DNA of 64,000 nucleotides from Clostridia bacterium (GTDB lineage Bacteria; Bacillota; Clostridia; Monoglobales; Monoglobaceae). The notes beneath the pieces were generated by a model that saw nothing but the letters and a program-made list of their open reading frames with translations, was not told where the DNA came from and did not search any database. Below are positions 2,930 through 35,066 of the stretch, in pieces (the stretch's first letter is position 1; the number at the start of each line of letters is the position of its first letter). The position numbers and the translations under genes are program-made. Where the stretch lies: the NCBI GenBank assembly GCA_017546165.1, contig JAFYXL010000001.1, positions 1-64,000 of the forward strand, written 5' to 3'.

Positions 2930-3040
2930 TAATATTCCTTGTTACTGACGGAGAATGTGGAGTACCACGAGGAAGCAAGGAATTTATGTAATGCCGACCG
3001 TCTGGGCAGTCCTGTAGCTACGGGACTGCCCTTTTTGTTT
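2930..3040 (+). promoter_or_regulatory. ZTP (pfl-motif) riboswitch with terminator
   Basis: The leader shows the pfl-motif layout. Helix P1 pairs 2934-2941 with 2976-2983 (ATTCCTTG/CAAGGAAT). It encloses a small GTGG-AGTA-CCAC hairpin (2957-2968) and is followed by the conserved segment GCCGACCGTCTGGGCA (2993-3008). The 3' part of that segment opens a strong terminator stem (GGGCAGTCC at 3004-3012 with GGACTGCCC at 3023-3031) followed by five T. Known ZTP riboswitches sense ZMP/ZTP, which builds up when 10-formyl-THF is short, and turn on purine and folate genes. Here it controls an operon holding exactly those enzymes, including fhs. Confidence 0.9.
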
Positions 3041-27667: not shown

Positions 27668-27696
27668 TTGATTTTTTTAGTCTAGTATGTTACAAT
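27668..27696 (+). promoter_or_regulatory. Promoter of the OPT transporter gene
   Basis: TTGATT (27668-27673), 17 bases, TACAAT (27691-27696). Transcription from about 27703 leaves a leader of roughly 107 bases that contains the pseudoknot-like element. Confidence 0.65.
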
Positions 27697-27701
27697 AATA
27701 A

Positions 27702-27803
27702 AGCTTGTGTGAAAAAAACAGACAAGATTTCACAAAGAACAGACAAGCGCCTTATTTGCTCACAATAAGGTGCGTATTTTTATACTGTGGGCGGAAAGGT
27801 TAT
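27702..27803 (+). promoter_or_regulatory. Structured leader, pseudoknot-like element copy 1 (OPT transporter)
   Basis: The leader folds as GCTTGT/ACAAGC enclosing TGTGAAA/TTTCACA, then a 10-bp hairpin (27747-27756 with 27764-27773) with the 7-base loop TGCTCAC (27757-27763). Bases GCTCAC of the loop can pair, with one G-U, to GTGGGC at 27787-27792, which directly joins the ribosome binding site GGAAAGG (27793-27799). A second copy lies upstream of fumC with the same 13-base 3' end, GTGGGCGGAAAGG. This suggests control of translation by an H-type pseudoknot. I do not recognise it as a known riboswitch class. The hairpin followed by TATTTTTAT could instead act as a weak terminator. Confidence 0.6.
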
Positions 27804-27809
27804 TCATAT

Positions 27810-29726
27810 ATGGAAAACAATAAGAATTTCAAGCCATATATTCCTGCGGAAAGGGTAACGCCTGAAATTACCATTACCTCAATCATTATGGGTATTATCC
27901 TTGCAGTAGTATTTGGTGCAGCGAATGCCTATTTGGGACTTCGTGTGGGTATGACTGTTTCTGCGTCTATCCCTGCAGCGGTTATCTCAATGGGTGTGAT
28001 TCGCGTTATTATGAAGAAGAATTCAATTCTTGAGAGCAATATTGTTCAAACAACCGGCTCAGCCGGTGAATCTCTGGCAGCAGGCGCAATATTTACACTT
28101 CCTGCACTCTTTTTGTGGGCCAAAGACGGCGTAATGGACAAGCCCGGTATTGTAGAGATTACACTTATTGCACTTCTTGGCGGACTTTTGGGTGTATTCT
28201 TTATGGTACCCCTTCGCAACGCCTTGATTGTTAAGGAGCACGGCGTTCTTCCCTATCCTGAGGGCACAGCTTGTGCGGAGGTTCTCCTTGCCGGCGAAGA
28301 AGGCGGAGCAAATGCATCAACTGTATTTGCCGGTATGGGTTTTGCAGCTCTTTTTAAGTTTGTTATTGATGGGCTTAAAGCAGTTCCCGGTGAGGTTGCT
28401 CTTCGCGTAAAAGGTTATGCAGGTGAAATAGGTGCTCAGATTTACCCTGCTGTTATGAGCGTTGGTTATATTTGCGGACCAAGAATTTCATCTTATATGT
28501 TTGCCGGTGGCGTTCTTGCCTGGATGGTGATTATACCTATGATTGTTCTTTTTGGTAAGGATCTTGTCCTCTATCCGGGAACAGTTGCAATCGGTGAGAT
28601 GTTTGCAAATGGCGGGGCAAGTGCAATATGGGGTTCTTATATACGCTATATTGGCGCAGGCGCTTTGGCTGCAGGCGGCATTATAAGTCTTGTAAAGTCA
28701 CTTCCTCTTATTGTAAACACCTTTGCAGGTGCAGTTCGTGGCATATCTGATATTGGAACAGGTGGCGCATTGCGTACGGATAAGAACTTAAGTATAAAAA
28801 CAGTTCTTGTTGCTATTATTATCCTTACACTTATTATCTGGATTGTTCCGGCCGTTCCGGTTTCTCCAATCGGTGCTGTTGTGGTTGTTGTATTTGGCTT
28901 CTTCTTTGCAACAGTATCTTCACGTATGGTTGGATTGGTAGGCAGCAGCAACAACCCTGTATCAGGCATGGCTATTGCAACGCTTCTTATTGCGACACTT
29001 GTTCTTAAAGTTACAGGTGATGGTGGCGCTCACGGTATGAAGGGTGCCATTGCAATAGGCTCAATAATCTGTATCGTTGCGGCAATCGCAGGAGATACTT
29101 CGCAGGACCTTAAGACAGGTTATTTGCTTGGTGCAACACCACGAAAACAACAGATTGCCGAAGTTATAGGTGTTGTAGCGGCAGCCTTTGCTATTGGCGG
29201 AACTCTCTACCTGCTTGACAGTGCGTGGGGATTTGGTTCTGATGAACTTGCCGCACCTCAGGCAACTCTTATGAAGATGATTGTTGAGGGTGTTATGGAT
29301 GCAAATCTTCCTTGGAATCTTGTATTCATAGGTGTTTTCATCGCAGTTGTGGTTGAAATTGTAGGTATTCCTGTGCTTCCTTTTGCGATTGGTGTATATC
29401 TGCCTGTTCATCTTAATGCTTGTATTATGGTGGGTGGACTGGTAAGACTTTTTGTGGACAAACTTAAAAAGGATGAAAAAGAGAAGACTGCCATTGTAAA
29501 TGATGGAATTCTTTTCTGCTCAGGTATGATTGCTGGCGAAGGCATTGTAGGTATTATTCTCGCAGTTCTTGCGATATTTGGATTTGACAAGGTGATTGAT
29601 CTGTCAGGCAAGCTAAACCTTCCTGCGTCAGTTTCAAACATTGGCAGCCTGGTGGTATTCGCTTTGGTTGTGGTAAGTGTTCTTAAGTTTTCTGTATGGA
29701 AAAAACGCAACACACTTAACAAGTAA
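27810..29726 (+). CDS. OPT-family oligopeptide transporter
   Basis: A 638-residue membrane protein with about 14-16 hydrophobic segments. The N-terminal PEITITSIIMGIILAVVFGAANAYLGLRVGMTVSASIPAAVISMG region is typical of the prokaryotic OPT (OPT_2) branch, and NIVQTTGSAGESLAAGAIFTLPAL is another family hallmark. These importers bring in small peptides by proton symport. I chose ATG 27810, ten bases after AAAGG; the reading frame stays open further upstream but through the structured leader. Two bases after its stop lies a PqqD-like gene. Confidence 0.88.
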   Translation: MENNKNFKPYIPAERVTPEITITSIIMGIILAVVFGAANAYLGLRVGMTVSASIPAAVISMGVIRVIMKKNSILESNIVQTTGSAGESLAAGAIFTLPALFLWAKDGVMDKPGIVEITLIALLGGLLGVFFMVPLRNALIVKEHGVLPYPEGTACAEVLLAGEEGGANASTVFAGMGFAALFKFVIDGLKAVPGEVALRVKGYAGEIGAQIYPAVMSVGYICGPRISSYMFAGGVLAWMVIIPMIVLFGKDLVLYPGTVAIGEMFANGGASAIWGSYIRYIGAGALAAGGIISLVKSLPLIVNTFAGAVRGISDIGTGGALRTDKNLSIKTVLVAIIILTLIIWIVPAVPVSPIGAVVVVVFGFFFATVSSRMVGLVGSSNNPVSGMAIATLLIATLVLKVTGDGGAHGMKGAIAIGSIICIVAAIAGDTSQDLKTGYLLGATPRKQQIAEVIGVVAAAFAIGGTLYLLDSAWGFGSDELAAPQATLMKMIVEGVMDANLPWNLVFIGVFIAVVVEIVGIPVLPFAIGVYLPVHLNACIMVGGLVRLFVDKLKKDEKEKTAIVNDGILFCSGMIAGEGIVGIILAVLAIFGFDKVIDLSGKLNLPASVSNIGSLVVFALVVVSVLKFSVWKKRNTLNK

Positions 29727-33505: not shown

Positions 33506-33614
33506 ATGTGAGAATTTAGGCGGGGAACCGGTTAATTATCTCCAGACAACACAATTGCAACGCCTAAAGCTTGCTGCATCTGAGCAGCATACCGGCAGCG
33601 TGCAATCACTAATT
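33506..33614 (+). promoter_or_regulatory. Structured intergenic region before fumC
   Basis: Several helices can form: TTTAGGCG/CGCCTAAA (33515-33522 with 33561-33568), a 6-bp hairpin TGCTGC/GCAGCA at about 33572-33589, and CCGGT in the first loop against ACCGG at 33591-33595. ATTGCA (33554-33559) can also pair with TGCAAT (33601-33606). The density of pairing suggests a folded RNA leader that continues into the pseudoknot-like element. I see no match to a riboswitch consensus that I know. Confidence 0.45.
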
Positions 33615-33674
33615 ACGCCTTATCTGCCCACGATAAGATTAAGCGTATATTATAATTATTTGTGGGCGGAAAGG
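33615..33674 (+). promoter_or_regulatory. Pseudoknot-like element copy 2 (fumC leader)
   Basis: Hairpin ACGC-CTTATC (33615-33624) with GATAAG-ATTAA-GCGT (33632-33646) and loop TGCCCAC (33625-33631). The loop's GCCCAC is fully complementary to GTGGGC at 33662-33667, which adjoins GGAAAGG (33668-33674). Loop and stem differ from the copy before the OPT transporter, but pairing is kept and the 3' 13 bases are identical. The fumC ATG is 15 bases past GGAAAGG, and a three-codon frame (ATG at 33677) lies between, both unusual. Confidence 0.6.
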
Positions 33675-33689
33675 CTATGGTAATTTAAA

Positions 33690-35066
33690 ATGGAATATCG
33701 TATTGAACACGACTCAATGGGCGAGGTAAAGGTACCTGCTGACAAACTTTGGGCGGCACAGACTCAGAGAAGTCATGAGAACTTTGAAATTGGTGTTGGA
33801 ATTGAAACAATGCCACGTGAAATTATTCACGCATTTGGAATATTGAAGAAGGCTGCAGCTCAGGCAAACAGTGAGCTCAGACCAGAAAAGATGACTGCGG
33901 CAAAGCTTGATGCAATCAGCAAGGCTTGCGATGAGGTTATCAGCGGTGAACTCAATGACAATTTCCCACTTGTTGTATGGCAGACAGGTTCAGGTACTCA
34001 GTCAAATATGAATGCAAATGAAGTTATTGCTAACCGTGGCAATCAAATTGCAGGTGAAAAGATTTTGCATCCAAACGACGATGTAAATCAGAGCCAGTCA
34101 TCAAATGACACATTCCCTACAGCTATGCATATTGCAGCAGTATTGATGCTTGAAGACAAGCTCATTCCTGCAGCAAATACATTGATTGAAACCTTTGTTC
34201 GCCTTGAAAAGGAAAATGAAGGAATAGTTAAGAGTGGTAGAACTCACCTTCAGGATGCAACACCAATCACATTCAGCCAAGAAATCAGTGGTTGGAGATC
34301 CAGCTTGGAACGTGACGTTGAACTTATTAAGCTTGCCCTTGCACCTCTTCACGAGCTTGCTCTTGGTGGTACAGCAGTTGGTACAGGACTTAATGCTCCT
34401 AAGAAATTTGGTGAAGTTGTTGCTGAGAAGGTTAGTCAGCTTACAGGCAAGGCGTTTGTAACTGCTTCAAACAAGTTCCATGCACTTACCTCAAAGGATG
34501 AGCTTGTTTTTGCACACGGTGCAATCAAAGCTCTTGCTTGCGACATGATGAAGATTGCAAACGATGTTCGTTGGCTTGCATCAGGTCCAAGAGACGGTCT
34601 AGGTGAAATTTTCATTCCTGAAAACGAACCGGGTTCATCAATTATGCCGGGTAAGGTAAATCCAACCCAGTGTGAAGCTGTAACAATGGTTGCAGTACAG
34701 GTTATGGGCAACGATGTTGCGGTTAGTATGGCAGCATCACAAGGTAATTTTGAGCTTAATGTATTTATGCCTGTTTGCATCTACAACTTCCTGCAGTCAG
34801 CACGTCTTCTTGCTGAGGCAATCCTTTCATTCAACAAGAACTGTGCAGTTGGCATTACTGCTAACAAGGAAAAGATGCATCACAATCTTCACAATTCACT
34901 GATGTTGGTTACAGCTCTTAACCCATATATTGGTTATGAAAATGCAGCAAAGACTGCAAAGAAAGCGTTTAAGGATAATATTTCACTTAAAGAAGCTTGC
35001 GTTGAGCTTGGCTTTTTGACAGCTGAAAAATTTGACGAAGTTTTCCATCCCGAGCAGATGGTTTAA
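33690..35066 (+). CDS. fumC: Class II fumarate hydratase
   Basis: A 458-residue iron-independent fumarase interconverting malate and fumarate. Diagnostic segments are [19 protein letters not shown] (about 97-115), [14 protein letters not shown] (about 138-151), [20 protein letters not shown] (about 183-202) and the signature [16 protein letters not shown] (about 316-331). It lies downstream of the malate dehydrogenase-like gene and 17 bases upstream of hdrB, so it supplies fumarate to the reductase encoded further on. The start is placed at ATG 33690 by homology; its ribosome binding site is unusually distant. Confidence 0.95.

Follow-up and report, generated by a model that had tools for sequence, protein, structure and literature searches.

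Pseudoknots placed next to the ribosome binding site (RBS) are used by the SAM-II riboswitches, and in the S15/rpsO leader of E. coli a pseudoknot at the RBS controls the access of the 30S subunit. RBS-proximal pseudoknots are also used by the preQ1 riboswitches (PMC11625349). The STAXI motif is usually found near genes for DNA processing, as two or three copies in tandem (PMC2864571), and the BOX elements of Streptococcus pneumoniae are high-copy repeats of modular tandem build with strong secondary structure that are found in transcribed leaders (PMC3049150).

We followed up two leaders in a window of 64,000 nt from the genome of a Clostridia bacterium, one preceding an OPT family oligopeptide transporter gene and the other preceding fumC. 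In line with a preliminary description, which assigned them to no known family, neither copy matched any Rfam 15 family at the gathering threshold or at E-values up to 10. Four fuller relatives gave no credible Rfam match at E-values up to 1, and the preQ1 and SAM-II families had no match in the scans of both leaders and these relatives. A search of the open-access literature, outside which many journals lie, found no description of this leader. The sole Rfam match in the window is a ZMP/ZTP riboswitch (2931–3014, + strand, 66.2 bits, above the gathering score), which is followed by a terminator-like hairpin and then an apparent purE in an ordinary, known arrangement.

Two leaders in one window

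The features of both leaders are collected in Table 1. The hairpin loop TGCTCAC of the OPT leader and its pairing with the RBS-adjacent GTGGGC are present as had been described, and compensatory changes in this pairing, P2, were found in relatives. P1 of this leader has 10 pairs, one of them G-U, and its loop (27757–27763) is made up of a T followed by GCTCAC. A run of T residues (27774–27781) abuts the P1 hairpin and makes it look like a terminator, in which the fumC copy differs. The consensus scan that gave the possible OPT promoter performs close to chance (3 sites found, 1.8 expected).

The fumC copy likewise has the loop and partner assigned to it, TGCCCAC (a T followed by GCCCAC) and the same GTGGGC, and the C/T difference between the two loops is tolerated as a G-U pair. 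The 13 bases GTGGGCGGAAAGG are indeed identical in the two copies. The two stems had been called different; this holds for their outer halves, while CTTAT is common to both. In the fumC leader P1 consists of an inner part (33619–33624 with 33632–33637) and an outer part (33614–33618 with 33643–33647). As the 5′ strand of the possible outer helix P0 overlaps the outer P1 strand, P0 and P1 compete there. The additional hairpin that precedes the fumC core may be the counterpart of a variable upstream domain in the high-copy genomes described below; the recA, topA and greA leaders showed no obvious upstream hairpin of this kind.

Many copies contain an ATG about 9 nt past P2, inside the P0 3′ strand (e.g., CTATGG, 33677–33680), and this ATG is often 12 nt upstream of the likely start and in frame with it. 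In the fumC leader the ATG opens an ORF of three codons (ATG GTA ATT TAA) right ahead of fumC.

Table 1. Features of the OPT and fumC leaders, in positions of the window.
Feature	Position	Strand	Details and basis
Possible OPT promoter TTGATT-17-TACAAT, TG ahead of −10	27668–27696	+	Consensus scan only
P1 hairpin, OPT leader	27747–27773	+	27747–27756 with 27764–27773; sequence, P1 covariation across copies
P2 5′ strand GCTCAC, inside OPT P1 loop	27758–27763	+	Partner 27787–27792, one G-U
U-rich linker (pseudoknot loop 3), OPT	27774–27786	+	13 bases
P2 3′ strand GTGGGC, OPT	27787–27792	+	Sequence, P2 covariation
Shine-Dalgarno core GAAAGG, OPT	27794–27799	+	1 nt past P2
OPT family oligopeptide transporter gene, ATG 27810	27810–29726	+	TIGR00733, 388.8 bits
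Extra hairpin TTGCA...TGCAA upstream of fumC core	33554–33607	+	33540–33612 folds at −20.1 kcal/mol
Possible P0 5′ strand AATTAC, fumC	33611–33616	+	Sequence; P0 covaries in other copies
P1 hairpin, fumC leader	33614–33647	+	Outer TACGC/GCGTA, inner CTTATC/GATAAG; sequence, covariation
P2 5′ strand GCCCAC, inside fumC P1 loop	33626–33631	+	Sequence, P2 covariation
P2 3′ strand GTGGGC, fumC	33662–33667	+	Sequence, P2 covariation
Shine-Dalgarno core GAAAGG, fumC	33669–33674	+	Sequence, spacing across copies
Possible P0 3′ strand GTAATT, fumC	33680–33685	+	Partner of 33611–33616; sequence
fumC, class II fumarate hydratase, ATG 33690	33690–35066	+	TIGR00979, above cut-off

A generic scan of the window for hairpins with a downstream loop partner returned the fumC copy only, against 0.6 matches per shuffled window. 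This is not significant by itself. The strength of the case comes from the homologs.

Structure and covariation of the leader

The core of the element is the hairpin P1, whose apical loop consists of one free base and a strand of 6–7 nt that pairs downstream as P2. The partner strand of P2 ends 1 nt upstream of the Shine-Dalgarno (SD) core GAAAGG, a spacing seen in 99 of 101 aligned copies, and in many lineages the outer helix P0 encloses both the element and the SD. The apical loop has 7 nt in 65 of the 101 copies and 8 nt in 32. Linkers across copies are 14–29 nt long (13 in the OPT leader), contain 44% T and have TTT at the end. RGAAAGG would presumably pair with the usual 16S rRNA 3′ end, CCUUUCU, and we take GAAAGG to be the SD on that basis; a search for the 16S 3′ end in the draft assembly to which the window belongs (hereafter the source genome) did not find it. 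The greA copies have another SD context (AGGAGG).

Compensatory changes were found at all seven pairs of P0, all seven of P1 and six of the seven of P2 in 101 matches to a covariance model, which was built from 74 copies with P0 and P1 only, leaving P2 out. Over the three helices 318 cells were changed on both sides, compared with 123 ± 9 after shuffling, and P2 alone gave 59 such cells compared with 24 ± 5, a value that none of 500 shuffles reached; since shared ancestry survives the shuffling, these numbers overstate independence. The variety of P2 solutions is the better argument. They include GCCCAC/GTGGGC, GGCTCAC/GTGAGCC, GCCTAC/GTAGGC, GCCCGC/GCGGGC, GTCCAC/GTGGAC and GCCCAA/TTGGGC. Pairing fell from 87% to about 40% when the partners were slid by 1–3 columns, and among 81 nonredundant copies strands paired better with their own partners than with swapped ones, both in P1 (z −10) and in P0 (z −6.6).

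An H-type pseudoknot with a first loop of one base and no second loop is feasible, and the geometry of the element appears to fit this type: P1 and P2 both covary, and nearly all loops consist of a single base and the P2 strand. The long P2 variant GGCTCAC/GTGAGCC, with one pair more, has a loop of 8 nt, as is expected if the first loop of the pseudoknot is a single base. We consider the pseudoknot-linked hairpin established as far as covariation goes.

Distribution and downstream genes

The prediction that the two copies represent an RNA class with further members was confirmed, as the covariance model finds many copies in related Clostridia genomes. In the source genome a pattern of loop plus partner gave 9 matches, the real new ones among them including those before recA, topA and greA, whereas the reversed control pattern gave none. 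This draft genome holds at least 10 clear copies and 14 model matches with E-values below 1e-3. The model matched in 47 of 148 relatives and, at 1e-6, in 48 of 391 sampled genomes of the class Clostridia, from about twenty families. Six genomes reached through named loci had 17 to 87 matches each; as a limited number of candidates was scored per genome these counts are lower bounds, and the E-values are rough. The numbers of near-identical dispersed copies, 87 in G149 (Oscillospiraceae MAG HAN068) and 38 in G152, are of the kind by which BOX and MITE repeats are recognized. Both window copies were used in training, so their own model scores do not count as independent support. Such support is given by the OPT orthologs in G005 and G002, which were outside the training set and matched at 3e-14 and 1e-13.

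Scanning 84,980 species genomes with a single pattern gave at least 120 stretches. The matches listed are almost entirely from Clostridia MAGs, Ruminococcus and Oscillospiraceae among them; the few in other phyla seem to be due to chance. Some early pattern matches (a tRNA repeat, a site internal to polC) were dismissed as chance as well. We also discarded a viral origin: the one pattern match in 2.9 million viral contigs is in high-GC sequence, has no P1 hairpin and is attributed to chance.

Almost every copy is followed immediately by a start codon, with the same orientation and spacing. In the copies listed the distance from P2 to the start of an ORF is at most about 25 nt, except in tandem upstream units. 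Besides fumC and the OPT gene, the genes behind the leader in the source genome include recA, topA, greA, leuS, dapA, the AgcS amino acid carrier, an electron transfer flavoprotein, a LegC-type aminotransferase, a solute-binding lipoprotein and a HisJ-family gene. Elsewhere it precedes lysS, serS, purF, guaA, gyrA, eno, pgk, tsf, secE, dnaX, clpC, purC, ilvD, murG, ruvA and many genes for secreted proteins. Some of these gene names are backed by profiles and others were read by eye from protein starts. The genes listed have no pathway and no transport of one compound in common. A ligand tied to transport or to fumarate metabolism is not borne out by such functionally unrelated genes, which also make a single-metabolite riboswitch unlikely.

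High-copy genomes and inheritance

In G149 the similarity between copies (L247–L282) reaches about 100 nt upstream of the core. The unit there begins with a perfect-repeat hairpin around GTGAAAAATCAC, continues with a second hairpin domain and ends with the core. Judged by eye, the hairpin around GTGAAAAATCAC also varies in a paired manner. Both upstream parts also exist, in versions of their own, in the Ruminococcus genomes and in G032/G035. Whole units recur in tandem every 158 bp or so, four of them in L111 (5051–5580) and pairs in L243–L246. In the tandem arrays of two Ruminococcus-type genomes the last unit alone abuts the gene. Gene-adjacent repeats had raised integron attC sites as a candidate; these were rejected, the copies being dispersed beside housekeeping genes.

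Two loci of the source genome (L203:174–213 and L201:1501–1566) have a start region of the AGAAAGGCTATG type with little or no pseudoknot upstream, and L203 carries AGAAAGGCT twice in succession. These could be decayed copies.

The leader is kept at greA in six of seven congeners, with the P2 pair GCCCAC/GTGGGC in two of the six and GCTCAC/GTGAGC in four. Nine orthologous genes carry it in both of the congeners G110 and G078, which indicates that it is stably inherited at this depth. In the other genera examined the greA leader was ordinary, and a separate match was found at greA of a different family (G303). Across larger distances membership thus appears to turn over. At the OPT gene the element is present in three congeners and absent from the other full-length ones. 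Since OPT leaders with and without the element have about the same length, its gain or loss does not resemble clean insertions.

A proposed two-state leader and its alternatives

From the position of the leader and its folding we infer that it would control translation. The leading candidate for the mechanism is an exchange of partners by the P1 5′ strand, and we consider the chances about even that the leader is an uncatalogued class of structured RNA that switches translation start between two states in this way. In the open state the P1 5′ strand would be on its local partner and the loop held by P2, leaving the SD exposed and translation on. In the closed state the same strand would pair with the SD on top of the same P2 helix, giving one long hairpin in which the SD is buried. 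As P1 is transcribed first, a new mRNA would begin open, and it could later settle into the closed form or be driven into it. Since the genes share no pathway, the input would probably be a general condition and not one metabolite; candidates are the age of the RNA, temperature, ions, a global RNA-binding protein or the ribosome itself. A further possibility, on balance doubtful, is that the element is a gene-agnostic module for translation start, with two states, up to dozens of copies per genome across Clostridia and no regulon of one ligand; one such module would be a timer by which the SD is closed off as an mRNA grows old.

Under nested folding, eight copies formed one long hairpin, with the P1 5′ strand paired to the SD as an extension of P2. 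We rejected this minimum-energy hairpin as the sole fold, since P1 covaries strongly, and retained it as the alternative state. In nested folding the probability of the SD being unpaired averaged 0.14 over the 101 copies, compared with 0.47 with shuffled surroundings, and returned to 0.51 once the P2 strands were held as in the pseudoknot; the folding energies leave out pseudoknot terms. When the P1 pairs were scrambled with P1 and P2 kept it was 0.54, and the observed value was lower than this in 97 of the 101 copies and in 18 of the 20 with the most diverged P1 strand. Between the P1 5′ strand and the SD no covariation was seen among the 81 nonredundant copies (z −1.4). In a simpler duplex test most of the signal of this pairing in the diverged copies was lost when the strand was shuffled within its own composition, the pairing being barely above shuffled (11 of 20). 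The feature retained is a pyrimidine-rich P1 5′ strand, and the closed state may therefore be an inherited sequence bias. The P2 pairs fit both proposed states, and covariation alone is therefore no proof that P1 and P2 coexist.

Several other explanations would account for part of these results. The leader might be a constitutive RBS module, a standard, reused 5′ leader whose pseudoknot insulates the SD or protects the mRNA and does not switch. This agrees with downstream genes that have no common function and up to 87 copies in a genome, with the lack of a conserved unpaired pocket other than the SD and the U-rich linker, and with vertical persistence at orthologous sites between congeners. 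Yet nested folding traps the SD far beyond chance, which would be odd for a mere helper of the ribosome, and about 43 nt lie between the possible OPT promoter and P1, so that the element would not always be at the 5′ end of the mRNA; we find this explanation rather unlikely. An amplified mobile repeat of the MITE or BOX type that carries an RBS by chance, with a structure that serves copying and gene control as a secondary matter, is unlikely in our view. It would explain why copies in the high-copy genomes are alike, linker included, and have a longer unit of about 158–175 nt in common, why several loci have copies about 158 bp apart, and why the OPT leader is patchy within the genus. It does not sit well with the fixed placement before start codons, the nine sites common to G110 and G078, the greA site common to six congeners, or the similar length of OPT leaders with and without the element, and no transposase or target duplication was seen. 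Mobility and function could both hold, if the element spreads by recombination and is retained for its function.

RBS-proximal pseudoknots of similar form serve the preQ1 and SAM-II riboswitches, and P2 might close upon binding of a ligand or a protein, which would make the leader a signal-specific riboswitch or protein-binding leader with a very large regulon. This is decidedly unlikely, given that recA, topA, greA, leuS, serS, fumC, purF, gyrA, eno and the genes for secreted proteins and transporters form no pathway and that nearly all conserved positions are paired and can be swapped by compensation, with no obvious pocket. We think it very unlikely that the element is a transcription attenuator, in which P1 and the U-rich linker would form an intrinsic terminator and P2 would do no more than modulate it. 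The OPT copy, with P1 scored as terminator-like, does have a GC-rich stem with a direct U tract, whereas the fumC copy does not; a U tract past P1 is found in 73 of the 101 copies, a small excess over the 63.8 ± 3.3 obtained with shuffled linkers, and the greA, recA and fumC copies have no U run. A terminator would also have no need of the SD-adjacent partner strand, which covaries. GCCCAC and GTGGGC do form an inverted repeat, and a DNA operator for a binding protein could be read into it. The spacing of the arms varies widely, however, P1 and P0 covary as RNA helices that accept G-U pairs, and the copies keep a fixed orientation and spacing relative to the start codon, which leaves this reading a negligible chance.

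If the two-state reading is true, a considerable number of genes in Clostridia that are common in gut and rumen, among them recA, topA, gyrA and those for tRNA synthetases and glycolytic enzymes, would start translation through one uncatalogued RNA fold, and this would amount to a general layer of post-transcriptional control. As a compact RBS element the leader would also be of use in engineering, and it is a clear case of a structured RNA present at high copy number at gene starts.

Comparison with known systems

Like preQ1-I, -II and -III and SAM-II, the leader is a short 5′ pseudoknot that lies beside or includes the SD and is proposed to act on translation. Unlike them it has no Rfam match and no conserved unpaired pocket, it stands at dozens of unrelated genes per genome, and the sequence of its P2 can be exchanged by compensation. 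With ribosomal-protein leaders such as S15/rpsO it shares the pseudoknot at the RBS but not a link to ribosomal protein operons. It resembles BOX and other MITE-like repeats in its high copy number, its modular and tandem units, its strong secondary structure and its transcription in leaders. It differs from these in that it carries the SD, stands before start codons at a constant distance and in a constant orientation, and occupies orthologous sites common to congeners, and no terminal repeat or link to a transposase was found for it. The STAXI motif is comparable as a pseudoknot repeated in tandem, whereas the leader mostly occurs as single copies and at the RBSs of any gene. As far as its sequence tells, the leader appears to work in the manner of RBS-proximal pseudoknot leaders while falling outside every family tested, which suggests an uncatalogued structured cis-acting leader. 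What makes it unusual is its copy number together with its indifference to the function of the gene that follows.
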